From positions 1 to 64,000 of the forward strand of contig CANGEV010000004.1 in the NCBI GenBank assembly GCA_947452995.1: a stretch of 64,000 nt of DNA, read 5' to 3'. This DNA is from Chitinophagales bacterium. GTDB lineage: Bacteria; Bacteroidota; Bacteroidia; Chitinophagales; CAIODY01. The notes below the pieces were generated by a model, which was not told where the DNA came from, did not search any database, and worked only from the letters and a program-made list of their open reading frames with translations. A program made the translations under genes and the position numbers. Shown in pieces: positions 20,501 through 38,450 of this stretch (the stretch's first letter is position 1; the number at the start of each line of letters is the position of its first letter).

Positions 20501-21314
20501 TTTGCGTCACAAAATTATAATCTGCGCCACTTGTTGCAGATCCACTTCCAACTTGTAATACAACATCTACTTTAGTTGTATCACTATTGGCAAAAATCAC
20601 ATGCATTGGAATATTCACTGTACCGCTGTTTTCATTAAAAACGGCATAAGTAGAATCAAAAAAGACAGTTGGTGGTATTGGGGTGCCGCAAGGAAATGCA
20701 ACGTGACTTCCTAACATAGTGAAGGTATTCATCGGATAAGCAGTCCACTCATACATTCCTTTCAACATCCAATTCTTTTCTCCATTATAGATATTTGGAT
20801 TACGAACTAAAGTTCTATTGACTGAAAAATTATTGGTGAGAGGTGTATTGATCTGCCAAGAAGAGCCTGGATTCGAACACATTTCTCCAAAAATATCGAG
20901 CGTATCCCCGTTAATGGTATTCAACAAATAAAGCGCATCATTGCCATTAAAATTCAAGCTTGCCCATGTTGTATCACGCACTGCAACAATGGCAGGGTCA
21001 ACACCTGATGCACCGCCATTATTAATAACATAGACATCTCCAGGACTTAAATTTACAGGAGGCAATAAAAAAGTAGATCCTCCTGCACAGTTGCCATTAC
21101 TAATTATACCAACCAAATATCCTGCTAAGTTGATCGGTGCAGGACTAGGATTATAAATTTCAATAACCTTACTTCCTCCATAACCAACTCCTGGCTCTAC
21201 ATATTCACTAAAGAATAAGTCCGTACAAGGCAAGCCGTATGTAGATTGTGCTCTTGCCTTTATTAGGAAAGTACTTAAAATTAGAAAAACGACAATAGTA
21301 GCTATTTTCTTCAT
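17577..21314 (-). CDS. T9SS type A secreted protein with lamin-tail domain and eight Calx-beta-like repeats
   Basis: A 1245-aa exported protein. After the signal peptide (ending KARAQ) comes a lamin-tail domain at residues about 28-205 (LFFSEYVEPGVGYGGSKVIEIYNPS, NLAGYLVG). Eight repeats of about 115 aa follow to residue 1150, most ending in a variant of VEGTESF...V.I.DND, the Calx-beta signature that binds calcium through the acidic residues. The last ~80 residues (DVRVYPSPVESNG, NLMGQVVLQQ, LSAGTYVYRI, GQVVIEK) are a type A sorting domain. Such proteins are usually large surface or extracellular adhesins that need calcium to be rigid. It has its own terminator and is probably monocistronic. 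Confidence 0.92.
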   Translation of the reverse strand: MKKIATIVVFLILSTFLIKARAQSTYGLPCTDLFFSEYVEPGVGYGGSKVIEIYNPSPAPINLAGYLVGIISNGNCAGGSTFLLPPVNLSPGDVYVINNGGASGVDPAIVAVRDTTWASLNFNGNDALYLLNTINGDTLDIFGEMCSNPGSSWQINTPLTNNFSVNRTLVRNPNIYNGEKNWMLKGMYEWTAYPMNTFTMLGSHVAFPCGTPIPPTVFFDSTYAVFNENSGTVNIPMHVIFANSDTTKVDVVLQVGSGSATSGADYNFVTQTVVIPPYWNGLIDPDTLQIIDDLIIEPTEDLYVELTNPQNAQILAVAQDTMRIDILDNDVVPSNSIQFLAPVNNSILEQAITLQIPVVLNASAAGPYTADVSLIATNTTATAGIDYSFTNTTLTFLNAQDTQYVSLDIYDECVCELLESIQLLVSNPSPGVIIGIDSIYSLDILPNDAPPSVSFGASTYTYNEGQLGQIIPLNLSAAHCDTMYVTVNVTPASNYQPGSLTWDFNGYTNGTNSIVVVIPPGQTSTSITLDIYSNSTLNMSGIPQTFTLDATWANCQAVAGLSTTSTNITVNDMNPVPSFSFNTANWSIAEGGGAIQIPVNFTNDYGLGGTVSVMSMDISTTLGLDYTFPGAILNFGATDTQLFVTIPIIQDLIFEGTESFALMLYAAGPYTQINSSLTNTQVDILDDDVYVGPTVSVNFEQPTYVMYAEMNAALTIPVIASGSTPVFPMTVTVNLDMMNTTATNGADFIMTNPQTLTFASANDTQYVQFSLLDDCVPEFLESIVLTMSNPVNVLIGQDSIYYIDIVQNDPTPSVSFSSNPTQTIGEAGGMLQVPVFLSNVHCDTVTVSYTLAGTATMMSDYSISAPLGTVTFYPGDTVKYITVSIVDDALVESTESIVFVLVNPVGATMGSFQTDAVSIIDNDVLAPTVYFGTTSNTYIESAGTVTVPVMIQNSSATTVSVTATLTSGTATIGSDVTGTVSQTIIFLPNSTTPQNVTFSIFDDAIVEGTENFTIVLSNAVSATIGAASTFTGTITDNDNGGLQAVAQFASTANTVKEGQTLVLNAPVYVSNPTASPVSVSFTVTAGTCLAGSDYVVITASPLIIPAFNTVNNIQINIVDDNLFETPEVFTITLNSAQNAILGSQTTMQVTVLDNDFATGVETVNSNDVRVYPSPVESNGVLTVQREQSSIAKFQLLNLMGQVVLQQDLVSNKVQVLLGDLSAGTYVYRIIENGLLKGNGQVVIEK
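17865..20672 (-). repeat. Eight tandem Calx-beta-like coding repeats
   Basis: At protein level each unit is about 115 residues with the pattern xVSFxxxxxxxxE, then TATxGxDYxF, then DxxxExxESxxxxLxNP and a closing DND. Units 2 and 5 carry an extra cysteine-bearing turn (DECVCELLES, DDCVPEFLES). The repeats have diverged in sequence and are not nucleotide repeats. Confidence 0.75.
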
Positions 21315-21374: not shown

Positions 21375-21407
21375 AAAAAAAGCCCCGCTAATAGCGAGGC
21401 TTTTTTG
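21375..21407 (-). terminator. Intrinsic terminator ending the giant-adhesin unit
   Basis: On the minus strand AAAAAAGCCTCGCT-ATT-AGCGGGGCTTTTTTT forms an 8-bp GC-rich stem (one G-U pair) extended by A-T pairs and followed by a T run. It lies 10 bases past the stop at 21416. Confidence 0.93.
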
Positions 21408-21415
21408 ACTTAGGA

Positions 21416-24400
21416 TTAACGAACCAATGTAACGTCGCCCTTTAGATAAATTAACTTACCGCCACCGCATTCCGCAATGACATTATACATATAAGTGCCT
21501 AATTCTTGATCTACGCCGCGGAACTTACCATCCCATCCTTTACTGTTCTTATCGTTAGTAGCGAACATTAATTGCCCCCAACGATTATAAACTTCCAAGC
21601 GCACCAAACGATAGAAATCATCTGGATTTAAAACATGGAAGGTTTTATCAGCTTCTACATCAGAATTTGGAGCGAATGCATTAGGAATACGTAAGGCATC
21701 GCACATACGTATTGTCACATGCATCGTATCTTTATCCATACATCCGAAAGATGCATTGTAATAGGTCAACACATAATCTTGATCAACAGACGGAGTTGTA
21801 TTAGGATCCATCAATGTTGGATTATCCAATGTAGCGGCAGGCGACCATAAGTACGCATTACCACCGATACTACCACTTCCATCAAGGTGAGCTGCATTAC
21901 CTATGAAGATCGTTTGATCCGCACCGGCATCTGCAATTGGAAGCGCATGTCCTGTAATATGATGCGAAGTACTATCGGTACAACCATTTGCATCTGTTAC
22001 GAACACAAACACATCAGCTCCACCCGTAACGAAAATAGAATCATTTATCGAACCCGTACTCCACAAGTAACTAACGTAGTTTGGTGTTACTGCTAAACCT
22101 ACTGTTTGATCCAAGCACAAATCATTTGGTCCTACAATAACCGGATCTGGCAATGGATTAACATCTACATTTTGTGTAACAGGCAAACTACTACATCCGT
22201 CTTGCGTTACCACAAGCGTTGTTGGATAATGAGCCTGAGTAGATGTATTATTTACATAACGAACATTGTGCGGACCTGCTGTCGTTGCCTTATTTGGATT
22301 ACCATTATTAAAACTCCAATTATAAGTCACCTGACCACTGCTACTAGGATTTGTTGTTCCTGTATAGCTAAAGTTTACTACCTGTCCTGAACAGATTGGG
22401 TTTGGCGTGTAGCTAAACGTTGCTGTTGGAATAGGATATACCGTTATCAATACAGAATCTGTATTAGAAGTACATCCGTTTTCAGTAATTGTCAAGTACG
22501 CAACCTCTGTCTTAATGCCAGATGTTGTCATATAAGTCACACTATGTGGCCCTTTCGTGTTAGCACTTAACGGGCTACCGTTAGGGAACGCAAATCCAAA
22601 AGTACAAGCAGCCGCATTTTGATAAGAACTACCTGCACTTGTAATTGTAACAGGCACACCAGCACATGTCAAAGCAGGATTAGAACTAATCTTTGCTACT
22701 GGATAAGGATGAATTGTAACATTCACAGAAGCACTATCATAACAACCATCTTGATCTACCAATAAGGTAACTTTTTTAACCAATGAAATCTTTGAAGGAA
22801 CAGTATTCCAAGTTACATCATACGAAGGCGTATTACTAACCATGTTTGCAATCCCACCGTTCCAACCCCAAGTGAATACAGGAATTGTTGGTGTAGGGTT
22901 TGGCGCAACACCCGTATTAATTGTCCCATTGAACGTCACCGTTAAAGGTGAGCCAGTACATACTGCATTCGGTGTTGTACTCATGCTTGCAACCGGATTC
23001 GGATAAATCACAACTGAGTCCATCGTAACAACCGAAGGACATAAGAATGTAGGGCCAACACTCGTTTGTAATTTAATTACATATTTACCAGGTGTGTTCA
23101 TGACTAAACTTAAATTCTTAGTCGTACCTACCACGTTATTATTTTTATCCATCCACTTATATTTCAAACCAGGATAAGCTGCAGAAGTCCCTGTATATGT
23201 CAGTTTCAAGCTATCACCTACGCAATGAGGGCTATTTCTAGCGAAATTACTCGTCAAGGTAGGAATAACAACTACACTTGCAGAATCAGGGAAAGAAGTA
23301 CATCCAAAATCATTTACTACTAAAGTAGGTGTAAATACGCCTCCTGAATTCCAGAACACTTGGTATGGGCCTTGCCCCGTACCACTTAATACTTGTCCAC
23401 CATCCCAATTCCAATTATACGTACCCGCTGCAGTCGCTGTACCCGTATAGGTAACCGTACTTGGGCTTCCCTGACAAACAGGTGAAGTCATAATGAAAGA
23501 TGCCGTTGGTGTAAGATTTTGCAAAATCGTAATTGTATCAGTAGCAGCACAACCTGTTCCACTTTGTGTAGCGGTCACTATAACTGAATCCGGACCAAAA
23601 ACCGTAACACTTGGAGAAGAACAGTTACTACAACCGGAAAGAGCACCACCATTTATAGTAGACCATGTCCAACCTGTTGTAGGGATATTATTTCCTGTTG
23701 CCCATAATGGAACTACGGATCCAGGGCACACACTTGTATCTTGTCGAATTTGTAAATTAATTGTACCAATTACATGAACCACAACGGTATCAAATAATGG
23801 GCAATAGGATCCCATTAATTGACAAACATAGGTCGTAGTGGTTGCAGGATTTACATTGATTGTTGCATTGGTGTTGTTTGGAATAACACTCGCTGGAATT
23901 GAACTCCAGAAGAAATTATAATTCCCAACATTAATTTGGATAGGGCATCCTGTAAAACGTGCATTTGGCAACAAATTACTTGTACCAAATGTATTTGGCG
24001 TAGCTGCATTTTGCGTACAACCCGCAATACCTGCAATATTACCTGCCCAAACTACGCAGTTACCGGCTTGCGCTGTCTTTGCAACTACATCACTCGCAGA
24101 TGAAATCGCAGAACCAAAACATATTTCAACTAACAAATCACTACTACCATCCCAATCATAGGCATTTGCGAAGGCAAAAGTGTTCCAACCAGCAGTCGTA
24201 TTATAATTTACAGGTCCATACACTGTTGACATACCGCCAATAAAATTACTTGGCATCACCAAATTCTTATTGATGCAACTTACTTTAATCGTCATATTAT
24301 AATGTGGCAAATAACTATTCTTGGTAGTTATATTAAATGCCATAGACGAAATTTTATACGGTGTTCCAGCTGCGATACCGAAAGCCGCTTGTAAACTAGC

Positions 24401-27400
24401 AGCCGTGTAACGCATCAACGTACGACCATTTGAATAATTCGCATTAAACGGTGTAATCGTTGTTGTCACGTTATTACCTGTACCATTTGTAACTGTTGTT
24501 GGAGCAGAAGCGCAATTATTCATTGTACTTAATCCACAAGGAACCGCATTCACAGGTACAGGACCTGTTGCGGTAGCTGTTAAGCTAACCCCTTGGTTAT
24601 TTCCACAGAACGTAGTATCAGCACCAGCAGAAATAGTATTCTTCTGCATTTGATATACAGTAAATGATTTAATTGTCTGACATCCACCATCATCACCTGT
24701 TAAGGTATATGTTGTTGTTACAGTAGGAGTCACAAAAATTGAATCATTATGAGAAATAAAGCCCGGAGGATTAGAGGTCCAAGTCCAAGTTGTAGTTGGT
24801 GTTGCTTTTCCACTACAACCTTTAATGAATACATCAGGACGTTCTGTTATGGTTCCTGGCAAGAAGCCATTACCCGTTTGACCATAGTTAGGATCACAAC
24901 CATTATAGCTATCTGAGTAAGCATAAGCACACAAGTTAGCTGTTGCAGGTAATCCGGCTGCTGTCGATAAAGTTGCATTGGCAGTTTTATCTACACGATC
25001 ATCAGATGTCCAACAACTACTTCCTGCATCATAACAAGTTTGAACCAAAAGGTTAGAAACTCCATCCCAAGCGTATGGCGTTTGAAGCACAAAACTATTC
25101 ATACCTGCAGAAGTATTGTATGCAGTGGTCGTATAAACTTGCGTCAAAGGTGTAGTCAAATCCAAGGCAACTGCGCCCGTATAAATATCAGTATAAGGAA
25201 CACATGCCATTGAAATGGTAAAGCCTGCAAATTGACCATTTGCAGAGCAGGCAGGCACTGTACTTGCCTTATTAACAACGTTCCACGCTACTTCCGAAAT
25301 TGGTCCACCTTGGAAGCCTAATGCCTGCAATTCAGATGCTAAAATCAACATCTGGCACTTAGACTCAGTGTAGAATCCACGGAATGGCGTTGGCAAATTA
25401 GCCGTTGTACCACTCGCATTACCTGTTGCATAAACAGAGCCTCCTGCACATGATATAGGAGACGGCCCACACACTGATGGTGAAGTCATAATAGAAATGG
25501 TATCAATCACTAGATTACCGAAAGCATCTCGCAAACAAATGGTATCATTACCCATAACAAAGGCCGTAGGATATTGTCCCTTCACCAAAATAGGAATGTC
25601 GACATTCGACCAACAAGTGGTATCTCCCGGAGGCGGGATTGCGGTAAATCGAACATTGTGCGGTCCATTGCAATTGTATTTCAACTTAATAGGTCCAGGA
25701 CCAACCAAGTTACCACTCATCAAGGTATAACAAGAATCAAGCGTATAGAAATAATTGAAATTTGGCTTAACAGTACCGGTATAATTTATAATAATAGAAT
25801 CCGTTGGTCCGCACACAGTATCTTGTGATACAAACATTGGTAACGGAGGCATTGGCTGATTAATGTGAATGGTCTTATAAACAGTATCGGAAACACAACT
25901 AATGTTGGACTGTACTATCAATTGAATGGTATAAGTACCCATTTGATAGTAAATGTGTTGAGGATTTTGTGTTGTAGAATCAATGTTAGGGTTATTTGGC
26001 GTTGCGTTTGGATCTCCAAAATGCCATTCCCAATGATTGATGAAGGTCCCTGCTGTAAGTGAATACGACGAATCAATAAATTGAACAATCGAACCCGCAC
26101 AATAATTAGACGGATAGAAGAAGTTGGCTACAGGTTTAGGTTGAGCAGTCAACAATGTATAGATGGTATCCGGACAACCGAAACCAGGATAAGGGAATAC
26201 GGCCAATGCATAAGTAGTTGGCTGTGTTGGTGCAGGATTCAATGTTAAGTTAACATTGGTACCAAGTATTGTTGTACACGTTGCATCATACCAAACATAA
26301 CTTTGATAACCTGGAGGTCCATTCAAACCTGCAGTAGAAGAGCCAGGACAATAGCCTTGCACAATTGCGGAAATAGAACAACCTACTCCAACGTCAATAT
26401 AACCATACCCCCAGTGTCCACTGAAAGAACAGTCAAATGTTGTAAATTCAAGTGCAACAGTACGTCCACTTAAACCATTCAAACCAATATTTTGCTGTGA
26501 CCACGACTTATAATGTACAGTAGGGTCTATGGTTGAGGTGCCCCATCCAGGCATGCTGGAACTCGCAGTATAAGCAAAGGTTGCACATGCAATGGAGCTA
26601 CCAGGACCTAACAAACTATCATAAATTTTCACAGTCATCCCTGGTTGATCTGTTGCACCATGACTAGCATCTTGCAAAACAGCAGCCCAGTTATAAACTA
26701 TGTTATAGTTATTATTTCCTGGAGGTATACGTAAATAATAAATTACGCGATCCGCTTGAGCCCCCGTATTATCATCCCCTACACGACAAGAAAAATTCCC
26801 GCCACCAAATACTGTAGGGCAAACAACAGGGAAAAGACCGTATCTATCAAGGTTCACCGGTGATGAAGCAGGTGATGCCATTGTTGCATTTGGAAAACCT
26901 GTTGGGGTAATTTCAAAACGAGTACCAGTACCAGCTACAGAAGGAACAACGGCAGCTCCACCAAATGTCGGTGCTGTACCTGGATAAGTTCCTGTATAGC
27001 ATTTCCAATTCGTAAAATTACCATATTCCCAGTCCATATTTTTAGGACAACAAACTTCAGGAACTATTTTTATGCAATAAGTAGGACTTGCACATCCAGA
27101 AGGTGCCGTTTGATAGACACAATACATACCTGCATCATTTGGTCCTATTCCATTTACTGTGTCTGCATTTTGAGTACTATTAACACCATTAGTGGTATTT
27201 GCAGTCCAATGCACTGTATAGCCCGCAGTTGGTGTGGCCGAAAAAATAAAATCACTACTATAACAAGGCTTTAAGGTATCATTTATCACACCATTTAAAA
27301 TCATATGCGGAACGCCCCCGACCATAGTTACAGGCAAGCCGTTAAATGTAATAACGGTAGGATAAGCAGCAGGACCAGCTCCAACCGTGATTATCATCAA

Positions 27401-27742
27401 TGCTGTATCACACATCACAGGTACTCCATTATCACATACCTTATAGGCTAATGTGTCAATACCACAAAACCCATTGTTAGGAGTATACGTGATTGTACCA
27501 TTATTAATGTTTACTGCAGTCACTAATCCATGCTTAGGTGAAATAATTATCACCGTATTCAAGGTAAGTGTTTGACCAGCATCAGGGTCAATGTCGTTCA
27601 GGACAACATTGGTAGTTACACCTGTATTGGCAGCCGTTGTCGCTAAATCATTGGCTGCTACCGGTGGATTGTTCGCATAAGCACTTTGCAATGCAAAAAA
27701 TGACATTGCAACGAAAATGGCTATTTTAAATATGCTTTTCAT
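21416..27742 (-). CDS. Giant T9SS type B protein (2108 aa), third paralogue of the cluster
   Basis: After the signal peptide (to about residue 23) comes a cadherin-like domain (PPVAANDLATT, NDIDPDAG, CDNGVPVMCDTA; 25-120) and an Ig-like domain (130-230). Next is the head shared with its two neighbours: the N..E.G....W jelly-roll-like domain (235-455), a GYCPG...GPPGYQSYVW Ig-like domain (460-535), and a PKD domain with WEWHFGDP (538-630). Two copies of a ~200-aa WDG-type module follow (about 752-977 and 1062-1268), then PKD-like Ig repeats (1410-1870). The C-terminus (IPNAFAPNSDV, VYNRWGQLMF, WDGKFRG, GDVTLVR) is a gliding-associated type B T9SS sorting domain. The protein is therefore probably displayed or released at the surface. 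It lies 26 bases after the 1544-aa paralogue and is the last gene of the unit. Binding target unknown. Confidence 0.9.
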   Translation of the reverse strand: MKSIFKIAIFVAMSFFALQSAYANNPPVAANDLATTAANTGVTTNVVLNDIDPDAGQTLTLNTVIIISPKHGLVTAVNINNGTITYTPNNGFCGIDTLAYKVCDNGVPVMCDTALMIITVGAGPAAYPTVITFNGLPVTMVGGVPHMILNGVINDTLKPCYSSDFIFSATPTAGYTVHWTANTTNGVNSTQNADTVNGIGPNDAGMYCVYQTAPSGCASPTYCIKIVPEVCCPKNMDWEYGNFTNWKCYTGTYPGTAPTFGGAAVVPSVAGTGTRFEITPTGFPNATMASPASSPVNLDRYGLFPVVCPTVFGGGNFSCRVGDDNTGAQADRVIYYLRIPPGNNNYNIVYNWAAVLQDASHGATDQPGMTVKIYDSLLGPGSSIACATFAYTASSSMPGWGTSTIDPTVHYKSWSQQNIGLNGLSGRTVALEFTTFDCSFSGHWGYGYIDVGVGCSISAIVQGYCPGSSTAGLNGPPGYQSYVWYDATCTTILGTNVNLTLNPAPTQPTTYALAVFPYPGFGCPDTIYTLLTAQPKPVANFFYPSNYCAGSIVQFIDSSYSLTAGTFINHWEWHFGDPNATPNNPNIDSTTQNPQHIYYQMGTYTIQLIVQSNISCVSDTVYKTIHINQPMPPLPMFVSQDTVCGPTDSIIINYTGTVKPNFNYFYTLDSCYTLMSGNLVGPGPIKLKYNCNGPHNVRFTAIPPPGDTTCWSNVDIPILVKGQYPTAFVMGNDTICLRDAFGNLVIDTISIMTSPSVCGPSPISCAGGSVYATGNASGTTANLPTPFRGFYTESKCQMLILASELQALGFQGGPISEVAWNVVNKASTVPACSANGQFAGFTISMACVPYTDIYTGAVALDLTTPLTQVYTTTAYNTSAGMNSFVLQTPYAWDGVSNLLVQTCYDAGSSCWTSDDRVDKTANATLSTAAGLPATANLCAYAYSDSYNGCDPNYGQTGNGFLPGTITERPDVFIKGCSGKATPTTTWTWTSNPPGFISHNDSIFVTPTVTTTYTLTGDDGGCQTIKSFTVYQMQKNTISAGADTTFCGNNQGVSLTATATGPVPVNAVPCGLSTMNNCASAPTTVTNGTGNNVTTTITPFNANYSNGRTLMRYTAASLQAAFGIAAGTPYKISSMAFNITTKNSYLPHYNMTIKVSCINKNLVMPSNFIGGMSTVYGPVNYNTTAGWNTFAFANAYDWDGSSDLLVEICFGSAISSASDVVAKTAQAGNCVVWAGNIAGIAGCTQNAATPNTFGTSNLLPNARFTGCPIQINVGNYNFFWSSIPASVIPNNTNATINVNPATTTTYVCQLMGSYCPLFDTVVVHVIGTINLQIRQDTSVCPGSVVPLWATGNNIPTTGWTWSTINGGALSGCSNCSSPSVTVFGPDSVIVTATQSGTGCAATDTITILQNLTPTASFIMTSPVCQGSPSTVTYTGTATAAGTYNWNWDGGQVLSGTGQGPYQVFWNSGGVFTPTLVVNDFGCTSFPDSASVVVIPTLTSNFARNSPHCVGDSLKLTYTGTSAAYPGLKYKWMDKNNNVVGTTKNLSLVMNTPGKYVIKLQTSVGPTFLCPSVVTMDSVVIYPNPVASMSTTPNAVCTGSPLTVTFNGTINTGVAPNPTPTIPVFTWGWNGGIANMVSNTPSYDVTWNTVPSKISLVKKVTLLVDQDGCYDSASVNVTIHPYPVAKISSNPALTCAGVPVTITSAGSSYQNAAACTFGFAFPNGSPLSANTKGPHSVTYMTTSGIKTEVAYLTITENGCTSNTDSVLITVYPIPTATFSYTPNPICSGQVVNFSYTGTTNPSSSGQVTYNWSFNNGNPNKATTAGPHNVRYVNNTSTQAHYPTTLVVTQDGCSSLPVTQNVDVNPLPDPVIVGPNDLCLDQTVGLAVTPNYVSYLWSTGSINDSIFVTGGADVFVFVTDANGCTDSTSHHITGHALPIADAGADQTIFIGNAAHLDGSGSIGGNAYLWSPAATLDNPTLMDPNTTPSVDQDYVLTYYNASFGCMDKDTMHVTIRMCDALRIPNAFAPNSDVEADKTFHVLNPDDFYRLVRLEVYNRWGQLMFATNDKNSKGWDGKFRGVDQELGTYMYNVIAECGGGKLIYLKGDVTLVR
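22133..23515 (-). repeat. PKD-like Ig repeats in the 2108-aa protein
   Basis: About five units of roughly 90 residues, each opening with PxPxAxFxxxPxxxCxG, then YTG, a W.W.GG core, GPYxVxW and a closing LxVxxxGCxS. They are related to the repeats of the neighbouring 1544-aa protein. Confidence 0.65.
23939..24559 (-). repeat. WDG-type module, copy 2 of the 2108-aa protein
   Basis: A ~205-residue segment with YSNGRTLMRYTAASLQ, then IGGMSTVYG, YNTTAGWNTF and YDWDGSSDLLVEICF. It aligns by eye with copy 1 and with the module in the 1544-aa protein. I do not know a name for this domain. Confidence 0.7.
24812..25489 (-). repeat. WDG-type module, copy 1 of the 2108-aa protein
   Basis: A ~225-residue segment with KCQMLILASELQALGFQGGPIS, then YNTSAGMNSFVLQTPYAW and DGVSNLLVQTCYD. 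It has the same order of motifs as copy 2, with a longer middle insertion. Confidence 0.7.
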
Positions 27743-27768
27743 ATGTATTTATTTCACGGATCTTTTAA

Positions 27769-30700
27769 TTAACGTAGTAAGGTTACATGACCTTCTTTTC
27801 TCACTATTTGACCACCTTCACATTCTGCTTCTAGGTAGAATGTGTAAGTGCCTACTTCTTGGTCTATACCATTAAACTTACCATCCCATCCAGCATCCAT
27901 TCTGTTCTTGCTAGAGTACACTTTTTGCCCCCAACGGTTGAATACTTCGAAACGCTTAAGATCTACTAATTGTGACCCGTTTGCAATGAAGAATCGTTCG
28001 TTTTTACCATCTCCATTTGGAGAGAAGGCTGTTGGAATAAACACATTAGAACAATGGGTAACTATTACTAGCATCGTATCATAACCAATACAACCGTTTT
28101 GGTCGGTTGCCTCAATAATATAGAATGTAGATACTGCTGGAGTTGCTTGTGTGTTTAAAATTACAGGATTTGAAACTGTTGCAGCAGGACTCCATTGGTA
28201 TAAATAATTAGGGGTAACTAATCCACCTATATTTGCTGTATTTCCTAGAACAATCATTGTATCAGGACCTGCATCAGGTACAGGTGGTACTAATACTGTA
28301 ACAATTGCAGTTCCAACACCTGTACAGCCATTCGCCAAGGTTCCTACAACAGAATAAGAGGTTGTAGTTGGTGGCCAAACTTTAATTGCTGGCAAATTAG
28401 AATTGATGCCATTTAACCAATTGTAACTATCAGCACCACTCACCCATAGGTAAGCAGGACGACCCGGGCAAATACTTGTATCACTATGAACAATCACAGT
28501 TGGGACAGGTAAAATAGTAATTGGACTTGTAACAGGAGTAGAAACACAACCATTTTGAGAAACGGTTAGTGTAACATTGTAGGTACCAGGATTATTCCAA
28601 ATTACACCGATCGGACCAGCACCAGAACCGTATACCTGGCTTGTCATACTACTGAATGTCCATGCGTAATTTGCACCAGGAACAACACCACCACCAATGT
28701 GAACGAAACGTGCTGTATCAAATGCACATGTAGGAGAAGTTACTGTGAAGTTCGCTGTTGGGATTGGAACAACTTGTAATGTTTGTGTATTTGTACTGGA
28801 GGTACATCCATTCTCTGTAACACTTAATGAAACTGTTGCATTGAAAATAGAATTAGAATTATTAATCCATGTAGCACCATGAGGTCCGATACCTGATAAT
28901 TGAACAGGATTCACATTACCTGTGGTATTCCAAACAAAACCTGCTGTATTCGTTGCATTACCTGTATAAGTGATTGCAACTTGATTGCCAGAGCAAACAC
29001 TTGCAGGTAAACTAAAGTTATTAGTTGGTGTCAGGGTTACATTAACAGGAACGATAGTAGGTGTCGATGTGCAACCATTAGAAGTAACTGTTAAACTTAC
29101 ATTTTTAATACCAGCGGTAGACCAGTTGACAGTATATGGTCCAGCACCTGGGCCGCCAGACGGAACACCACCATCCCAAGCCCAAATATAACTAGCACCA
29201 GCACCCATATTACCTGTATAAGTAATAGGGGTAGCTTGGCCTGTACAAGATTTTATTGGAGCTACGAACGTTGAAGTTGGTGTCAAATTAACTACTAATG
29301 GAACAGTGGTCGTACTTGTACAATTAGCATTTGTAACTGTTAAGGTTAAATTCTTTGTTCCTGCGCTATTCCAAAGTGCTTGATAAGGGCCAGCTCCACT
29401 TCCTGAAGCAACAACAGCGCCTTGTAAATTCCAATTATAATTATACGAGGCATTTGCGGTGCCTGTATATGATACGATTGCATTTGAACCAGTACATACC
29501 GGATTCGGAATTACAGTAAACCCAGACGTTGGTGTTTGATCAACGATGACAGGAATTGTAATTGAATCTAAACAGCCAGCTGCGTTTACAAGGAGTTTAA
29601 CATTCTTCGTACCTGCTGTTGCCCAAGTTATAGTATAAGGTCCAAAACCAGAACCGCTCACAACAGTTCCTCCATTCCAATTCCAAGTTGCCGTACTACC
29701 CGCAGGATTAACACCAGTAAATGTTACAGTAGCATTAGCACCAGAACAAACAGGATTTGGATTGACTGTAAAGTTCGCAGTAGGTACTGGTTTAACGGTA
29801 ATTGTCACATTACTTGTCACAGAACATCCTGAATATCCTGTTGCTGTAACATGATAAGTCGTAGTAACCGAAGGTGATACCGTAGGATTCATTTGTAAAG
29901 ACGTAAATCCAGCAGGTGTTGAGGTCCAGTTATAGTTGAAAGGACCAGTTCCTGTTACAGTTGGATTCAAAGTATACACAGATCCTTTACAAATCGATGC
30001 ATTTAAACCAGCATTAATTGAAGTTGTATTGTCAATATAAATAGCTTTTGTAGTAGTGGTTTGACATCCGTTACCATCATCCACTGTTACTGTATAAGTT
30101 GTATTTGTAGTAGGGCTTGCGACAGGATTATTAACAGTCGCTGAAGATAAGGTAGCGGTAGGCGTCCAAACATACGATGCGGTATTCAAATTTGAATTAC
30201 AAGTTATAAGTGTTATGGAAGGTCGATTGAATGAAGTACTAAAAATAGTACCTGTTGTTAAGTTACAACCAACACTACCCACCCCACTCTGCAGGGCATA
30301 AACGCACGAATTAAATGCAGTTGCTGTTTGAGCAACCAAATCATCCATATTCGCAGATGAGTTATCAAAACAGAATTCAAATACTAGGTTGCTTACACCA
30401 TCCCAATTATATGGAGTTTGGTACATAAAGGTATTAGTACCATTAACAGTATTATAAATTGCAGTAGAATATACCAAACTCAATCCGCCAATGAAAGAGG
30501 CAGAAGTGTATTGTGAAGTAGAAGCACAGCCCATTGAAATCTTCAAATTTCTAAAAGGATTCGTACTTCCTTTACTTGTAACATTAAAGCTAATACCAGA
30601 AATCTGACCAGCACTAAAACCTGCATTTACTAATTCAGATGCACGAACAATCATTTGCATTCGACCATCTGAATAGGATTGAGCAAACGGACCAGGATAG

Positions 30701-32403
30701 GTGGAAATATTCAATCCGCCTGTTCCTATAATGTTATTGTTTGAAATACCGTTACATGCAATATTTGTTGCCCCACACGTAGTAGGTATTACAGAAACAG
30801 AAAGTTGGCTATTAGCATTCGGGCAAATTGTGTCGTCAGAGGCCACAATATGTGCATCTGGTGCAACGCCAACTATATTCACTATTACACTATCTGTGAA
30901 TCTACATCCCATTACAGGATTTGTAATTGTGTAGTAGTAGGTGGTTGTTGCAGTTGGAGTTACTATAGCAAATTGCTGGGTAGTATCAACAATTCCATTG
31001 TTTGGCCAATTTAAACCATTATTGGTTGTCCATGCAATTGAATAGTTAGGATTTGGTGGCGAAAGTGGATTTAACGTCGTAGTTGTATTTAAGCAAATAT
31101 TTTGATCAACACCGGCATTTGGATAAACGGGGGGTTGTGCCACATTTAAGATGGTGAATAAGGCTGTATCGGAAACGCAGGATATACTTGATGTTACTAT
31201 TAACTGCACTTGGAAAAAACCTGTATCAGAGAAGATGTGAATAGGATTCTGTTGAGTGCTATAATTGTTCGCACCAGTGTTTGGATCGCCAAAATCCCAA
31301 TGCCAAGAATTGATATAGGCAAATGGGAAGTTTGTGTAAGATGAATCAGTGAATTGAACAGGACTGTTCGCACATATTTGCTGATTGGTCGTAAAGTAAG
31401 CAGTTGGTAATGGAGCAACCTTTAGCGTATCAATCAAAGTATCATTACAAGATGTACCCCCTGGAGGTGTTACGACGCAAGCGTATGGAGTATTTGAGGC
31501 AGGAGCAGTAATAACAACAGAATCAAAATTACCGATATTTGTCCAACCTGGTAATTGATACCATGAATAGTTGGAGAAGCCTGGAGGGCCATACAAGGTA
31601 GCAGAGCTTTGTCCTGGGCAATACCCTGTACTGATACGGAAAGGATTACATCCACCAGGAATATCAACATATGAATACCCAAAGTGACCGCCAAAAGAAC
31701 AGTCCCCTGTAGCGAATTCCAAAATAACCAGGTGTGTATTAAGTGCAGCTAAATTTACAGATACAGGAATCCAGTTGGAACAGAAAACCTGGCTATTTGA
31801 TGGCGAAACAAACCAGAAAGGAGGCATGTTCGTGCTGCTCGTAGGCGAAGGAATATTATAAGAAGGACAAGGTACTACAACCGGTGTTGTATAAGGTGCG
31901 GTAATCGGACCTGCATCGTAAACTGTAAACACAACTCGTGGTTGATCTGTTGCTGCGTGACCACCGGAGTTTAATACGGCAGCGTAACGATAGATTAACG
32001 TAGAGTTATTCGAATTAACAGGAAATTGAATACGCACTTTTTCCGATTCTGAACCAGTATTGGGGTTTCCTAATTTTAAGGAATGCAAATTCACAATGGG
32101 AGGTTGCACTGGACAAACACACGAAAATCCACAAAGTGCATCATTTCCCCATGTGGCGTCCGTTACTTCAATCCGTCCTGGTATTTGAAAATTAACTCCC
32201 TGAAATGAACATGCGTTAATCGGGCAACATCCTAAGCCTGTACAACCGTTATTAATAAACGATTGCCATTGTGTCATGTCGCCTAATTCAAACCCAATAT
32301 TTGGCGGACACCCTTGGGAAAAGGCTTTTGGAGCTTCTAATAACAAGAGCAACAACAACAATTTGTAGCTCAATTTTAAAATATTTTTCATTTGCAAGTT
32401 CAT
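27769..32403 (-). CDS. Large T9SS type B protein (1544 aa), second paralogue of the cluster
   Basis: The signal peptide holds a striking leucine run and ends near KAFSQ; translation could also begin at the ATG at 32391. The head is the shared one: jelly-roll-like domain (CPPNIGFELGDMTQW, 31-255), GYCPG Ig-like domain (260-330), and PKD domain with WHWDFGDP (332-420). An Ig-like domain, one WDG-type module (about 540-735) and more Ig-like units follow. Five PKD-like repeats with G.G.GPY..W cores span 870-1300. The C-terminal ~90 residues (IPTAFSPNGDGKNERF, FNRWGQKVY, WDGKFNGID, GHVTLLR) form the type B sorting domain. It stands 49 bases downstream of the 126-aa gene and 26 bases upstream of the 2108-aa gene, consistent with one operon. 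Confidence 0.9.
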   Translation of the reverse strand: MNLQMKNILKLSYKLLLLLLLLEAPKAFSQGCPPNIGFELGDMTQWQSFINNGCTGLGCCPINACSFQGVNFQIPGRIEVTDATWGNDALCGFSCVCPVQPPIVNLHSLKLGNPNTGSESEKVRIQFPVNSNNSTLIYRYAAVLNSGGHAATDQPRVVFTVYDAGPITAPYTTPVVVPCPSYNIPSPTSSTNMPPFWFVSPSNSQVFCSNWIPVSVNLAALNTHLVILEFATGDCSFGGHFGYSYVDIPGGCNPFRISTGYCPGQSSATLYGPPGFSNYSWYQLPGWTNIGNFDSVVITAPASNTPYACVVTPPGGTSCNDTLIDTLKVAPLPTAYFTTNQQICANSPVQFTDSSYTNFPFAYINSWHWDFGDPNTGANNYSTQQNPIHIFSDTGFFQVQLIVTSSISCVSDTALFTILNVAQPPVYPNAGVDQNICLNTTTTLNPLSPPNPNYSIAWTTNNGLNWPNNGIVDTTQQFAIVTPTATTTYYYTITNPVMGCRFTDSVIVNIVGVAPDAHIVASDDTICPNANSQLSVSVIPTTCGATNIACNGISNNNIIGTGGLNISTYPGPFAQSYSDGRMQMIVRASELVNAGFSAGQISGISFNVTSKGSTNPFRNLKISMGCASTSQYTSASFIGGLSLVYSTAIYNTVNGTNTFMYQTPYNWDGVSNLVFEFCFDNSSANMDDLVAQTATAFNSCVYALQSGVGSVGCNLTTGTIFSTSFNRPSITLITCNSNLNTASYVWTPTATLSSATVNNPVASPTTNTTYTVTVDDGNGCQTTTTKAIYIDNTTSINAGLNASICKGSVYTLNPTVTGTGPFNYNWTSTPAGFTSLQMNPTVSPSVTTTYHVTATGYSGCSVTSNVTITVKPVPTANFTVNPNPVCSGANATVTFTGVNPAGSTATWNWNGGTVVSGSGFGPYTITWATAGTKNVKLLVNAAGCLDSITIPVIVDQTPTSGFTVIPNPVCTGSNAIVSYTGTANASYNYNWNLQGAVVASGSGAGPYQALWNSAGTKNLTLTVTNANCTSTTTVPLVVNLTPTSTFVAPIKSCTGQATPITYTGNMGAGASYIWAWDGGVPSGGPGAGPYTVNWSTAGIKNVSLTVTSNGCTSTPTIVPVNVTLTPTNNFSLPASVCSGNQVAITYTGNATNTAGFVWNTTGNVNPVQLSGIGPHGATWINNSNSIFNATVSLSVTENGCTSSTNTQTLQVVPIPTANFTVTSPTCAFDTARFVHIGGGVVPGANYAWTFSSMTSQVYGSGAGPIGVIWNNPGTYNVTLTVSQNGCVSTPVTSPITILPVPTVIVHSDTSICPGRPAYLWVSGADSYNWLNGINSNLPAIKVWPPTTTSYSVVGTLANGCTGVGTAIVTVLVPPVPDAGPDTMIVLGNTANIGGLVTPNYLYQWSPAATVSNPVILNTQATPAVSTFYIIEATDQNGCIGYDTMLVIVTHCSNVFIPTAFSPNGDGKNERFFIANGSQLVDLKRFEVFNRWGQKVYSSKNRMDAGWDGKFNGIDQEVGTYTFYLEAECEGGQIVRKEGHVTLLR
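28504..29796 (-). repeat. Five PKD-like repeats in the 1544-aa protein
   Basis: Five ~85-residue units at residues about 870-1300, each with PTxxFxxxPxxVCxG, YTG, WxWxGG, SGxGxGPYxxxW and LTVxxNGCxS. The regular phase and partial identity between units suggest local duplication. Confidence 0.75.
30199..30786 (-). repeat. WDG-type module in the 1544-aa protein
   Basis: Residues about 540-735: YSDGRMQMIVRASELVNAGF, ISGISFNVTSKGS, FIGGLSLVYS, YNTVNGTNTFMYQ and YNWDGVSNLVFEFCFD. It matches the two copies in the 2108-aa protein. Confidence 0.7.
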
Positions 32404-32452
32404 AATTTAGGGTTGTTTTCAGTTTTCAACTTTAAGGTCAGTCCTCAATTGA

Positions 32453-32833
32453 CTAACGCTTATAATTTACTAGAACCCAGTTGTTATCAGACATTACTTT
32501 TTCCAATTCAGGACTTGTTAATAAATCTACGGTGTCGTCGAAGACCAACACTACACGACGTGAGTTAGGAACCTCGGTAGCAAGCGGCATCATAGATTGA
32601 AAACCTTTTACCTTTTGAAAATATTCAAAAACCTTAGCCATGTTGATCATATCTGAAGATGACAATGTTTCTAACACCACAATTCTGCGATGCGCTACAG
32701 GATTGTATGATTGATCGATTACTTGAACCGCAATACGTTTACTGGTAGTTGTTGCTGTTTTTTGTGTTGTTTGTGCCATGCTCAAATCTGCAAGACCTAA
32801 CAAAACCATAACGGAGAAAAGGATACGTTTCAT
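32453..32833 (-). CDS. Small exported protein of unknown function
   Basis: A 126-aa protein with a signal peptide (MKRILFSVMVLLGLADLSMAQ) and no lipobox, so it is probably periplasmic or secreted. The mature part is a Thr-rich linker, then RIAVQVIDQSYNPVAHRRIVVLETLSS, which has the look of a small carboxypeptidase-like or Ig-like sandwich, and a C-terminal segment with DDTVDLLTSPELEKVMSDNNW. There is no T9SS sorting domain. It sits between two giant T9SS type B genes (25 and 49 bases apart) in the same direction, so it is probably co-expressed with them. I do not recognise the family; an accessory role for the giant proteins is a guess from position. Confidence 0.8.
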   Translation of the reverse strand: MKRILFSVMVLLGLADLSMAQTTQKTATTTSKRIAVQVIDQSYNPVAHRRIVVLETLSSSDMINMAKVFEYFQKVKGFQSMMPLATEVPNSRRVVLVFDDTVDLLTSPELEKVMSDNNWVLVNYKR

Positions 32834-32858
32834 ATTTGTGAGTTTGAATTTTTAATTT

Positions 32859-35417
32859 TTATTTTATCAATGTAACATTACCTGTTTTAGTTTTTACTTG
32901 CCCTCCTTTATCTACCACCTGCGCTTTAAAAACATACACTCCTAAATCTTGCAGTTGGCCTTTAAAAGTACCATCCCACCCTTTCGCATGAATATCTGTG
33001 GTAGAATAAACTAATTCGCCCCAACGATTGTATACCTCGAAGTAATCTAAGGATACAAAGTTGCGATTCAACAAGAAGAAATAATCATTTTTACCATCCC
33101 CATTCGGCGAGAACGCACTTGGAATAATTAATTCAGGACATTCTATTGGACTCACAAAAACGGAATCCTTTGCACGACAACCTATTGTATTCGCTGTATT
33201 GACGTAAACCATTACCGGTTGATTAACAGCCACAACCGCTGTCGAGCAAGTTATACACGATGCTAGAGAACCTGCAGTAGGATCCATTGCCCACCAGAAT
33301 TGCTTAATATCTGCAGACAAAGAATTGAACGCTATAATTTCTGCTTGGTTCATACAAGGTTTAATTGTGTCAGGCAAATCTAATGAATATGGCTCCCCTA
33401 TTCTTACTACAATATTTTTAGTTAATACGCACCCACCGTAGGTAATTCCGGTAACAGTATAGGTGGTTGTTTGCATGGCGAAGCAAGTAACTTGTGGTCC
33501 CGTAGAGGAGCTCAAATCATTTGAAGGGTTCCAACTAAAACTAAATCCACCACTTGGCGCAGGTCCATCCATAGAGGCCATTAAGTTACAGCTCGATCCT
33601 TTACACATTACGGTATCAAGACTTGCAAACATATGATTGCGGTCATCGACATTAACCAGGAAAGTCTGTGAGGAAGAGCATCCGTTGTCATTTATTGTTA
33701 GACTATACGGCGTAGTTACAAGCGGATTAACAGTAGGATTTGAAACGGAAGTGGAACTAATATGTGTATTAGGCGTCCAGGTATACGTTGCGGAAGCAGG
33801 GATTGGATCCAAGCCTAAATTGGTAATACTCAGAAAATCATTTTCTCCGACACAAACGGTATCATCCCCATTTATTTGAAAGTTCGGACGCACCCCTAAA
33901 ACGGTTACTTTTACGGAGTCAGTTAAATTACATCCTGAAGGATCTGTAAGAATTAAATGATAAACAGTGGTAACTGTAGGTGATGCTTTTGGATTAGAGA
34001 TAGAATCATTACTTAACCCTGTCGAAGGTACCCAATGATATTGATAGGGTCCGAAAGCTGCATTGGCCGTTGCTTGCAATTGTGTGCTGTCGTATTTACA
34101 GATACTCACATTAGGGCCTGCATTCAAATTGATTGGAGGAGGAGGAATGATCGTTATTGAAAGACTCGTTGTATCAGATACGCATGAGATGTCAGATTCT
34201 ACAATTAGCGACACTGTATATGTGCCAGGATTATAGAAAACGTGTGTCGGATTTTGCGCAGTAGCTGTGTTGTTACCTCCGGAAGCGGGGTCACCAAAAT
34301 CCCAATGCCATTGTACAATGATCGACCCAGCGATATGAGTTTGACTGGAATCGAAGAAGTTGATTAATCCACCTGCACAAGCTGTAGTTTGGAAATTAAA
34401 TAATGCAGTTGGGCGGGGTTGAACATGAATAGTGTCGTATAATGTATCTGCGCAGGCGTTCAAACCAGGCGGAATTACCACCAAGGAATAAATCACGTTA
34501 GAGTCAGGTGACATCACCAATAATGAATCTGCAGAACCGCTAGCAATAAATGGCGATCCAGTACCTGCAGTATCCCAGATGTAAGTGTTAAAGCCAGGAG
34601 GGCCAAAAAGCGTAGCTGCCGTTGATCCAGGGCAATAGCCTGTTACAACAGAGAATGCGCCGCAATTTAAATCTACATAAGCATACCCAAAATGACCGCC
34701 TAAAGTACAGTCGGCGGTTATAAATTCAATGGTAACCAAATGCCCATTTAAAGCACCTAAATTAACTGAAACAGGAATCCAGCGCGAACAATAAACAGGG
34801 TTAATGGATTGATTCGTTATAGATGCAAACCAACCTGGAGGCAGACTCGAAGACGAAGACGGCGTTTGGAATAAAATGGAAGGGCATTGAACTTTTACTG
34901 CCGCTGCATAGGGTGCGTTTACAGGGCCATTATCCCATACATTGAATTCAAGAAAAGGCTGATCTAAGGTCGTGTGATTAGGATTTTCCATTACAGCTGC
35001 ATAACGATAAATCAAAGATGCATTACTTCCATTAACAGGAAATGTTGTTCGCATCATTTCAGCTTCAGAGCCAAAATTATCATTCCCTAAACGGACAGAT
35101 TTTGTACCATAACCAATATAAGGGCATGCGACAGGCAATAAGCTATACGGATCTTGGGTTCCGTTGAAAGGAACCATGTAGGTTAAGCCTGTACCATTGG
35201 GAGTGATTGTGTGTCGACCAGCAACTTGACCCGGAGTCGTTATTGTTGGTGTACCTGTAAGATTTGATCCTGTAAAGCATTGCCAACTATTTGTATTTCC
35301 TAGCTCAAAACCAATATTAGGCAAACACTGGGCATAAACATCCTCCTGAATTATAAGGCAAAAAAGCCCTATAATAAGCAGTTTGACGCTTAATAGATGA
35401 AGGAGTTTTTGTATCAT
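32859..35417 (-). CDS. T9SS type B protein (852 aa), first and shortest paralogue of the cluster
   Basis: After the signal peptide (ending EDVYAQ) the protein has the common head: a jelly-roll-like domain (CLPNIGFELGNTNSWQCFTG, about 28-262), a GYCPG...GPPGFNTYIW Ig-like domain (265-340), and a PKD domain with WHWDFGDP (343-430). Three Ig-like units follow. No WDG-type module is present. It ends in the type B T9SS sorting domain (IPSAFSPNGDGKNDYF, VYNRWGELVY, WDGTFKGQ, GNVTLIK). It leads the four-gene unit that ends at the terminator at 21375-21407. It may represent the minimal form from which the longer paralogues grew, or a shortened one. The ligand is unknown. Confidence 0.9.
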   Translation of the reverse strand: MIQKLLHLLSVKLLIIGLFCLIIQEDVYAQCLPNIGFELGNTNSWQCFTGSNLTGTPTITTPGQVAGRHTITPNGTGLTYMVPFNGTQDPYSLLPVACPYIGYGTKSVRLGNDNFGSEAEMMRTTFPVNGSNASLIYRYAAVMENPNHTTLDQPFLEFNVWDNGPVNAPYAAAVKVQCPSILFQTPSSSSSLPPGWFASITNQSINPVYCSRWIPVSVNLGALNGHLVTIEFITADCTLGGHFGYAYVDLNCGAFSVVTGYCPGSTAATLFGPPGFNTYIWDTAGTGSPFIASGSADSLLVMSPDSNVIYSLVVIPPGLNACADTLYDTIHVQPRPTALFNFQTTACAGGLINFFDSSQTHIAGSIIVQWHWDFGDPASGGNNTATAQNPTHVFYNPGTYTVSLIVESDISCVSDTTSLSITIIPPPPINLNAGPNVSICKYDSTQLQATANAAFGPYQYHWVPSTGLSNDSISNPKASPTVTTVYHLILTDPSGCNLTDSVKVTVLGVRPNFQINGDDTVCVGENDFLSITNLGLDPIPASATYTWTPNTHISSTSVSNPTVNPLVTTPYSLTINDNGCSSSQTFLVNVDDRNHMFASLDTVMCKGSSCNLMASMDGPAPSGGFSFSWNPSNDLSSSTGPQVTCFAMQTTTYTVTGITYGGCVLTKNIVVRIGEPYSLDLPDTIKPCMNQAEIIAFNSLSADIKQFWWAMDPTAGSLASCITCSTAVVAVNQPVMVYVNTANTIGCRAKDSVFVSPIECPELIIPSAFSPNGDGKNDYFFLLNRNFVSLDYFEVYNRWGELVYSTTDIHAKGWDGTFKGQLQDLGVYVFKAQVVDKGGQVKTKTGNVTLIK

Positions 35418-35466
35418 TCTATACAGTTTTCAGTTTTAAATAAAAACACACTCGCGTTAAGGGGCG

Positions 35467-35500
35467 CAAGTATAGTTTTCCTTCGCAATATAGCGAAAAC
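35467..35500 (-). promoter_or_regulatory. Candidate promoter region with imperfect hairpin before the giant-adhesin unit
   Basis: The minus strand reads TATACTTG (7 of 8 to TAnnTTTG) 49 bases before the ATG at 35417. It is directly preceded by an imperfect inverted repeat (TTCGC/GCGAA core, GTTTT/AAAAC flank). The spacing of the nearest TTG is too short for a standard promoter, so this could be an operator or simply a weak end-of-gene hairpin of the GT9 gene. Confidence 0.3.
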
Positions 35501-35546: not shown

Positions 35547-36521
35547 TCAATCTAATTTTTGCAAGTTCATACAAGCAAAATGTCCTTTAGGACAGGAATT
35601 GAAGCCAATCTTACTACAAGGTCGGCAAGACAAGCCTAATACTTCGTGATTAAGCGAATATGCTGCATTTAAATCCGGATAAAATGGAGACATCCCAAAG
35701 CCTGGAAGTGTATTACCCCAAAAGACTTCTAAATCTTTATTATATGCTGCTGCAATGTGCATCATACCCGTATCATTGGTATAAACCCTAGTGGCTAATT
35801 TTAATAATTCAGCAGATTGATTTATAGTCAATGTTCCCGACCAATTTATAATTTTTTCAGGGAACGCAAGGGATAACATATCCCCCATATGCTTATCTTC
35901 CTTACCTCCAATAACATGAATTGGTCCATCTAAATTAATTGCCAATTCTTTCCATTTTTCAATTGGTAGTCGTTTAGTAGCAAACTGTCCTCCTATCGCA
36001 AAAACAACAAACGGCTTCTTAGAATATTCGGGCAAAAAGACGTTCTGTAACCAGTTTTGAGCCTTAGAATCGGTAAAATAATCAAGGCCTAATCCATCAT
36101 AGGTAATGTCCAATTCCTGACAGGCTTGTAAATATCTATTTACAATATGAGGCACTTGCATTTTCTTTTTCCAGTTCACCATTCTCCACTTATCCCAATT
36201 CATTTTTCGAACGGACGAGGACTTCACAGCAAGTACTAATTTTATAAAATTACTTCTAAGGTTATTGTGAAGATCAACGACAAAATCATATTTCTCCTTG
36301 CGCAAGGTATTGGCAAGTTTAAGCAGCCCATTTTCTAAGGGTATAATTCTATCGATGTATGGATTATTTTCAAGAACTGTACTTAGCTTTTGTTTTACAA
36401 CTAAATGTAGTTGAGCGTTGGGATACCTACTCTTTAAACAGCGATAAACAGGACTTGTTAGCACAAGATCACCAATCGAGCTAAAGCGAATAATCAGTAT
36501 TTTTTTTGGAGAAGCGTCCAT
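35547..36521 (-). CDS. Glycosyltransferase family 9 (heptosyltransferase-like)
   Basis: The start is set at the ATG at 36521 (MDASPKKILIIRFSSIGDLVLTSPVYR); the track start is a TTG. The N-terminal RFSSIGDLVLTSP block and the NDTGMMHIAAAYNK motif near residue 250 are the hallmarks of GT9, which adds heptose or a similar sugar to lipopolysaccharide core on the cytoplasmic face of the inner membrane. The C-terminus has a cysteine-rich tail (LSCRPCSKIGFNSCPKGHFACM) that is common in GT9 proteins. At 324 aa it is normal in length. The ATG lies only 11 bases past the terminator of the upstream lipoprotein gene. It is not next to the polysaccharide operon at 46-51 kb, so a joint pathway is uncertain. 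Confidence 0.9.
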   Translation of the reverse strand: MDASPKKILIIRFSSIGDLVLTSPVYRCLKSRYPNAQLHLVVKQKLSTVLENNPYIDRIIPLENGLLKLANTLRKEKYDFVVDLHNNLRSNFIKLVLAVKSSSVRKMNWDKWRMVNWKKKMQVPHIVNRYLQACQELDITYDGLGLDYFTDSKAQNWLQNVFLPEYSKKPFVVFAIGGQFATKRLPIEKWKELAINLDGPIHVIGGKEDKHMGDMLSLAFPEKIINWSGTLTINQSAELLKLATRVYTNDTGMMHIAAAYNKDLEVFWGNTLPGFGMSPFYPDLNAAYSLNHEVLGLSCRPCSKIGFNSCPKGHFACMNLQKLD

Positions 36522-36560
36522 AAACAAAAAAAGAAAAGCCGACCTAATGATCGGCTTTTC
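36522..36560 (-). terminator. Intrinsic terminator after the adhesin-PorP/SprF-lipoprotein unit
   Basis: A perfect 10-bp stem (GAAAAGCCGA/TCGGCTTTTC) with an 8-base loop is followed by TTTTTTTG on the minus strand. It lies 16 bases past the lipoprotein stop and directly before the GT9 start codon. Confidence 0.92.
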
Positions 36561-37442: not shown

Positions 37443-38450
37443 CTAGAACTTAGGACAGAACATCTTTTTTCCACGGCTATATACCGTTGGTTTAGATTTA
37501 GGACATTTAATAACATATTGCAAGGTCAATTCAGGACCGCCTTTATAGTTAGAAATAACATGTAAAGGAGATACATTCACATCATACGACAAGCCAACTG
37601 CAAGATTAAAAATATCATAACGGAAGTAGAAATTAAGTGCGTCAGCACCTGGGCGAGTAAAACGCATTCCTGTACCGAAATATACAGCAGTTTCATAAGA
37701 CAAATTATCGTCAATAAGTACCTTTCCAAGTGCAGAAACATTTAACTCACGCGCTCCTTTCTGAGTACTATACTGTAGCATAGGAATTACCGTGAACATA
37801 TCTGCAAATTGAATAAAGGCTGTGCCATGGTATTGAAAACGTGTTCCTAACAAATCATTATAATGCGCAAATGATTGATTTGGGCGTGTAAGATGCGTAA
37901 GGCTAAATCCAGTCTGATACGACAACCAATTATACGGTTGATGATAAAACAGGACCCCTGTACCAAAATCCGTGAAGCTCACATTATTCGTCAAGGTTAC
38001 TACTTCGAATGGATTTTCTAATTTAAGATTAGAAAGATTTAATTTTCTCTGCCAGGATCCGAATTGTAATCCGGCAGCAATAGTCATTGGATGCTTCTTG
38101 TCTAAAATATGGCAGTAGCCCATGCTAAATCCGAAAGCACTTGTTCCAAATTGTGCATCCCCACCAATATCATTAAAGAAGTTAACTCCAAGCCCAACGA
38201 AATTACCTTTCAATTGACCTTGCAAAATTTTAGCATCCATTGCTCCCGACATCGTGTTAAAGCCATTGCTTCCCATAATGGAGGACCATTGATTTCTATA
38301 GCCTGCATTTATGCGCATACAACCATTGAACTGCCCTACCAAGGCAGGATTCAACGTTTGAGGCGACATATAATATTGTGTAAAATGAAAATCCTGGGCT
38401 GTTGCATTCAGTCCAATCATCCAACAAAGAATTACTATAATTTTTTTCAT
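37443..38450 (-). CDS. PorP/SprF family type IX secretion system outer-membrane protein
   Basis: A 335-aa protein with a signal peptide (to about TAQ) followed by DFHFTQYYMSPQTLNPALVGQFNGCMRINAGYRNQW. The order of Gln-Tyr..Pro..LNPA..G and the YRNQW motif is diagnostic of the PorP/SprF family, which forms outer-membrane beta-barrels. Family members are linked to T9SS and often to one particular large cargo, as SprF is to SprB. The barrel pattern is complete and length is normal. It lies 13 bases downstream of the 1100-aa type B adhesin gene, the same pairing as sprB-sprF. No core T9SS genes (porK, porL, porM, porN, sprA) are in the window. Confidence 0.92.
   Translation of the reverse strand: MKKIIVILCWMIGLNATAQDFHFTQYYMSPQTLNPALVGQFNGCMRINAGYRNQWSSIMGSNGFNTMSGAMDAKILQGQLKGNFVGLGVNFFNDIGGDAQFGTSAFGFSMGYCHILDKKHPMTIAAGLQFGSWQRKLNLSNLKLENPFEVVTLTNNVSFTDFGTGVLFYHQPYNWLSYQTGFSLTHLTRPNQSFAHYNDLLGTRFQYHGTAFIQFADMFTVIPMLQYSTQKGARELNVSALGKVLIDDNLSYETAVYFGTGMRFTRPGADALNFYFRYDIFNLAVGLSYDVNVSPLHVISNYKGGPELTLQYVIKCPKSKPTVYSRGKKMFCPKF

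Follow-up and report, generated by a model that had tools for sequence, protein, structure and literature searches.

A conserved unit of probable orphan type B T9SS adhesins carrying 0, 1, and 2 copies of a nested module in one family of Chitinophagales

Genes for type B substrates of the type IX secretion system (T9SS) commonly adjoin a cognate PorP/SprF gene, which usually lies downstream, but this arrangement is not obligatory. Type B proteins exit through SprA with PorP/SprF shuttles and remain anchored to them (PMC9143113). In F. johnsoniae, SprB and the orphan proteins Fjoh_1123, Fjoh_1720, and Fjoh_4934 carry a type B C-terminal domain (CTD; TIGR04131), use the SprA translocon, and depend on PorP/SprF proteins at the surface (PMC12618676, PMC9143113); the three orphans, with CTD identities above 44%, share one orphan shuttle, Fjoh_1677 (PMC12618676). 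We analyzed a 64,000-nt stretch of DNA from a Chitinophagales bacterium (the window) that encodes three large proteins, termed A, B, and D, with the same type of CTD. They would likewise use SprA and probably depend on PorP/SprF at the surface. Unlike the F. johnsoniae orphans, the three lie in one unit together with a small, putatively exported protein, and they carry graded numbers of a nested module, termed WDG. Another giant surface protein of Bacteroidota, grappling hook protein A (GhpA) from Aureispira sp. CCB-QB1, is longer (5,898 aa, against 852 to 2,108 aa here) and matches B in sequence (E value of 1.2e-19) over 7 stretches, the best of them at B 739-1139, a region of Ig-like and PKD-type repeats.

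The original prediction for this locus described three large open reading frames (ORFs) in one transcription unit, ordered by length and separated by short gaps. The three ORFs have the predicted sizes (Table 1), but a fourth, small gene lies between A and B. The gaps are indeed short (25 bases from A to the small gene, 49 from the small gene to B, and 26 from B to D), but two of them flank the small gene instead of directly separating large genes, A and B being 455 bases apart. The order by length holds in the window and is weak evidence when taken alone, as chance gives it in 1 of 6 cases, or in 1 of 3 if either direction is accepted. That the genes form one transcription unit appears probable, given the short gaps, the strong terminator-like hairpin found after D and in none of the gaps, and a conserved block before A. 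The bases of the hairpin differ in a genome of the same genus (G002) and yet the pairing is kept, which supports a real terminator. The 47-nt block upstream of A contains a hairpin, is present in a single copy in the genome, and is identical in G002, compared with identities of 76.5% for the coding DNA of A and 77.5% for the whole upstream gap. Within this block, TATACTTG is one base off TAnnTTTG, the Bacteroidota -7 promoter consensus. The strict promoter form TTG-N17-23-TAnnTTTG was found upstream of none of the unit genes, sigma-70-type promoter matches were fewer than in shuffled sequence, and an Rfam search with the conserved upstream block returned no family. The block is likely a promoter or a leader, although it may also be a small RNA. 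Judging from the sequence, A, the small gene, B, and D are likely carried on one transcript. Directly after the terminator of the unit, positions 17577-21314 of the window encode a T9SS protein of type A (1,245 aa) that contains seven Calx-beta repeats and a lamin-tail domain.

Table 1. Features of the unit and its surroundings (window positions for nucleotides, residue numbers for domains)
Feature	Position	Strand	Description
Glycosyltransferase-family-9-like gene, upstream	35547..36527	-	ADP-heptose:LPS heptosyltransferase type, named from sequence, not profile search
Non-coding block, 47 nt	35447..35493	-	Shortly before A; no base differs in congener G002
Gene A	32859..35417	-	852 aa, ORF; signal-like N-terminus, head H 30-256, GYCPG Ig-like 257-333, PKD 335-427, more Ig-like domains, 0 WDG, type B CTD 760-852
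Small gene	32453..32833	-	126 aa; signal-peptide-like N-terminus
Gene B	27769..32403	-	1544 aa, ORF; head 31-257, Ig, PKD, Ig, Ig-like split by one WDG (541-741), 5 PKD-type repeats 874-1298, type B CTD 1451-1544
WDG module of B	30199..30780	-	Inside third Ig-like domain
Gene D	21416..27742	-	2108 aa, ORF; Big_9 24-105, Ig-like, head 231-460, Ig, PKD, two WDG, 5 PKD-type repeats 1412-1862, type B CTD 2014-2108
WDG module 1 of D	24815..25471	-	Lineage of C11 protein
WDG module 2 of D	23945..24541	-	Clean insertion; Ig-like domain uninterrupted in C11 paralogue
Hairpin and T run after D	21376..21406	-	Intrinsic-terminator-like; paired in G002, different bases

The small protein is putatively exported, as suggested by its signal-peptide-like start. 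Structure prediction gave a small alpha/beta fold (pLDDT of 76.5, with low confidence for the first 30 residues), for which a fold search returned no match below an E value of 0.001, and a Pfam scan yielded chance-level matches only. Homologues were present in 5 of the 6 family genomes analyzed, always between A and B; in G003 and G004 the gene is duplicated in tandem. Elsewhere among 199 genomes of the order, we found none, except for one partial match (E value of 6e-4).

We then considered the secretion of A, B, and D. As predicted, a type B tail is present in all three (49.9, 44.6, and 39.8 bits for TIGR04131, against a cut-off of 35), their N-termini are hydrophobic as judged by eye, and the genome encodes SprA/Sov (2,508 bits). 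It also contains 14 PorP/SprF genes and 25 type B CTDs, 21 above the cut-off and 4 weaker. No PorP/SprF gene is adjacent to A, B, or D, the nearest one to A being 4.4 kb away and adjoining another type B gene (C1100). The CTDs of A and B are 47% identical, and each shares 43% identity with that of D. Since no shuttle gene is adjacent and the CTDs are 43 to 47% identical, A, B, and D would probably share one shuttle encoded elsewhere, like the F. johnsoniae orphans. This is a fair inference, although their CTDs are about as close to those of C1_42 and C2 (orphans) and of C5 as to one another. The neighboring PorP/SprF gene at 37443-38450 was rejected as the obvious partner, because the type B gene that it abuts does not encode one of the CTDs nearest to those of A, B, or D and because no such gene was identified in G003 and G004 within the ~3 to 4 kb analyzed upstream of A. 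Most type B substrates of this genome are orphans, with a PorP/SprF gene within 1 kb for 5 of the 25; 3 orphans of 12 were reported for F. johnsoniae. A 6,970-aa open frame with many Ig-like repeats (G000:C1:278548 to ~299470) adjoins a PorP/SprF gene, and its type B CTD match is below the curated cut-off. At another locus (L047, G000:C11:1-4459 and 4469-5527), a D-like paralogue, hereafter C11, has a PorP/SprF gene directly upstream by ~10 bases.

Modules were counted with profile hidden Markov models (HMMs) built from the window proteins. The counts of 0, 1, and 2 WDG modules in A, B, and D agreed with the original prediction, and the head, the GYCPG Ig-like domain, and the PKD domain are common to the three proteins. 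The shared head is not N-terminal in D, where it begins at residue 231 because a Big_9 and an Ig-like domain precede it. A rise in the number of PKD-type repeats with gene order had also been proposed, and we rejected it, since from the head on there are 1, 6, and 6 repeats in A, B, and D, and the ladder fails from B to D. The N-terminal extension of ~200 aa and the 199-aa second WDG module account for much of the length by which D exceeds B.

In Pfam, the head and WDG sequences matched models at chance level only, as did WDG in NCBIfam, and searches of PDB sequences with the WDG and head profiles returned nothing meaningful. WDG contains conserved cysteines and aromatic residues. A structure model of B from the head to WDG (pLDDT of 76 and pTM of 0.46, moderate confidence) is nearly all beta, including the head. 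Its best matches in a fold search were Ig-stack proteins, fragments of GhpA among them, and MAM-Ig modules. We read the match to MAM-Ig of receptor tyrosine phosphatases (8a1f and 2c9a) as head plus Ig, at the level of the fold class only (~10% identity); the overall TM-score is low because several domains were modeled together.

The WDG modules sit inside Ig-like domains of the stalk, as supported statistically by a splicing test on the protein sequences. We spliced out WDG at 42 sites from the window, the family, and the order and scored the joins with an Ig profile built exclusively from proteins of the same genome as the window that lack WDG; in the controls, 45 residues taken at random from the protein in question stood in for the upstream flank. 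A full-length Ig match was obtained at 34 of the 42 sites, compared with 9% of the controls. The module of B divides an Ig domain that is intact in A at the same place in the domain order. Taken alone, the two sites of D and the C11 site gave no clear Ig match, so for the D modules the case for nesting rests on the D orthologues of G003 and G004, which do show it on their own score, and on the comparison of D with C11 (SLTATATGPV[WDG]NYNFFWSSIP at the WDG2 insertion in D versus SLSAIVTGPI...IGYQWTSIP in C11). The structure model is silent on this point because it stops at the WDG module. Being nested in Ig loops, WDG would add side mass and not stalk length. Across the order, WDG modules are often paired in consecutive Ig-like domains (L161-L168 and L173).

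Evaluation of related genomes revealed the same order of A, small gene, B, and D in G002, from the same genus, and in G003, G004, and G005, from a sister genus, with a glycosyltransferase-9-like homologue preceding A in all four; D is cut by a contig end in G004, and the unit of G005 lies over two contigs, with B cut. The WDG counts of 0, 1, and 2 recur in G002, G003, and G004, and 0 and 2 are readable in G005, where B is cut. This conservation spans proteins that are ~32 to 47% identical across the two genera. It supports the proposal of a set of related type B surface proteins that are probably made together. The unit was not found in G001, an assembly that is 89% complete and in 420 contigs. 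Because only two independent lineages (the two genera) carry the unit, retention of the 0/1/2 series may be plain descent. The two modules are themselves widely distributed. The head is widespread in Bacteroidota, with 582 loci or more in species genomes, though in an even sample of the phylum it was present in only 15 of 248 genomes. WDG, which often comes in pairs, was found in 48 of 61 genomes at the level of the order and in 25 of 198 in a phylum sample. Tandem heads with WDG were seen in this family alone among 80 named and 7 phylum head loci (flanks of up to 10 kb), the named relatives being metagenome-assembled genomes labeled Chitinophagales or uncultured bacterium. Within the window, from position 61206 to past the window edge (L049:3207-6467), we also observed a 1,086-aa protein with a PKD domain and a weak head match (36 bits).

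The original prediction explained the unit by growth of a stalk through module gain to give graded reach, which we read as two tandem duplications of one ancestral adhesin. This account has in its favor the tandem order by length, the head and tail shared by the three proteins, the sister relationship of the A and B heads (100/99 in the head tree), and the PKD-repeat body and related tails common to B and D. Moreover, D is the longest protein even after removal of WDG in the window (823, 1,319, and 1,460 aa from the head to the end for A, B, and D) and in G002. In G003, however, the corresponding lengths are 592, 1,369, and 1,284 aa, with D shorter than B, which together with the nesting of WDG argues against graded reach. 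The ancestry of D also speaks against growth of one stalk. Its head joins that of C11 (100/98, and 96/96 in a smaller set), and D 1-1062 is 50% identical to C11 (998 bits) versus 33% to the aligned part of B (319 bits). C11, of at least 1,486 aa and cut by a contig end, has the same succession of extension, head, Ig, PKD, and WDG over these 1,062 residues, but it is encoded elsewhere in the genome, next to a PorP/SprF gene of its own, and lacks WDG module 2. The back of D (1037-2108) is slightly nearer to C1_42 (33%, 518 bits) than to B (33%, 402 bits), and the tail of D is 55% identical to that of C1_42 versus 43% to those of A and B. In the WDG tree, the first module of D groups with C11 and with the first D modules of other genomes, and the second one groups with C1_42 and others, the B module being closer to the first lineage. 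A recent tandem duplication of WDG within D was rejected, since its two modules belong to different old lineages. A tree that unites the heads of A, B, and D from the two genera in a single clade was rejected (p-AU of 4.7e-6), but the same clade for the genus of the window alone was not formally rejected (p-AU of 0.065). Long branches left a single tree of all type B tails with poor resolution; in it, we disregarded the row D_G004x, a mislabeled copy of the B_G004 tail. From these comparisons, D is best described as a mosaic with parts in common with two other loci, so the set would not be the product of simple growth. By the standard that the original prediction set for itself, the breadth of the head and the distance of D from A and B largely refute it. 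We consider stepwise growth quite improbable, and the original prediction is partly supported, in that the arrangement it described is real and conserved and its length ladder fails.

We favor, with somewhat better than even confidence, the explanation that A, B, and D are orphan type B adhesins expressed together, in which an undescribed, nested module occurs in graded numbers. The genes could instead be chance neighbors brought together by local duplication and recombination, with a functionless 0/1/2 series. The 2.5-Mb genome does contain ~100 matching stretches in addition to its 25 type B CTDs, WDG is frequent and often paired in the order, and modules shuffle between loci; yet the order, the small gene, and the 0/1/2 series are kept across two genera despite the low protein identity, and conservation is higher in the upstream block than in the coding DNA, which makes this alternative doubtful. 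It is also conceivable, but unlikely, that the head and WDG act as enzymes or capture nutrients and that the unit serves to handle glycans at the surface. The all-beta head, the conserved cysteines and aromatic residues of WDG, and the presence of the surface glycan-binding protein 6e57 among the fold matches would fit such a role, but the unit has neither a SusC/D pair nor a carbohydrate enzyme, and the head and WDG lack Pfam matches, as WDG does an NCBIfam match.

We propose that the adhesin set would function as follows. Transcription from one promoter upstream of A would yield three orphan type B T9SS substrates, most likely anchored surface adhesins, and one small exported protein. A, B, and D would each present a similar head (a beta-rich, jelly-roll or MAM-like domain together with Ig), borne on a stalk composed of Ig-like and PKD domains; the C-terminal type B domain would hold them at the outer membrane. 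The beta-rich WDG modules, absent from A, would occupy loops of the third Ig in B and of the third and fourth Ig in D. Projecting sideways, they would grade the valency of a second module for binding (or shielding) and not the reach of the proteins. An adhesion role is the most likely one for the three proteins. A fuller version, in which the three co-transcribed proteins keep the same kind of head and anchor, selection maintains the 0/1/2 series of a binding module, the cell tunes valency by the mix of proteins that it displays, and the small protein aids their assembly, seems unlikely to hold in its entirety.

Few surface proteins of Bacteroidota are as large or as poorly understood as those of type B. 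The analysis delimits two widespread domains for which Pfam has no model, the head and WDG, and WDG is an undescribed domain family worth a model of its own. On the best reading, the unit is restricted to one family and encodes adhesin-like orphan type B proteins that differ in their number of nested WDG modules. With 0, 1, and 2 modules on a common scaffold, the proteins form a compact natural series in which the role of WDG can readily be tested, and the encoding of several orphan type B substrates together without a shuttle bears on how one PorP/SprF protein may serve more than one of them.
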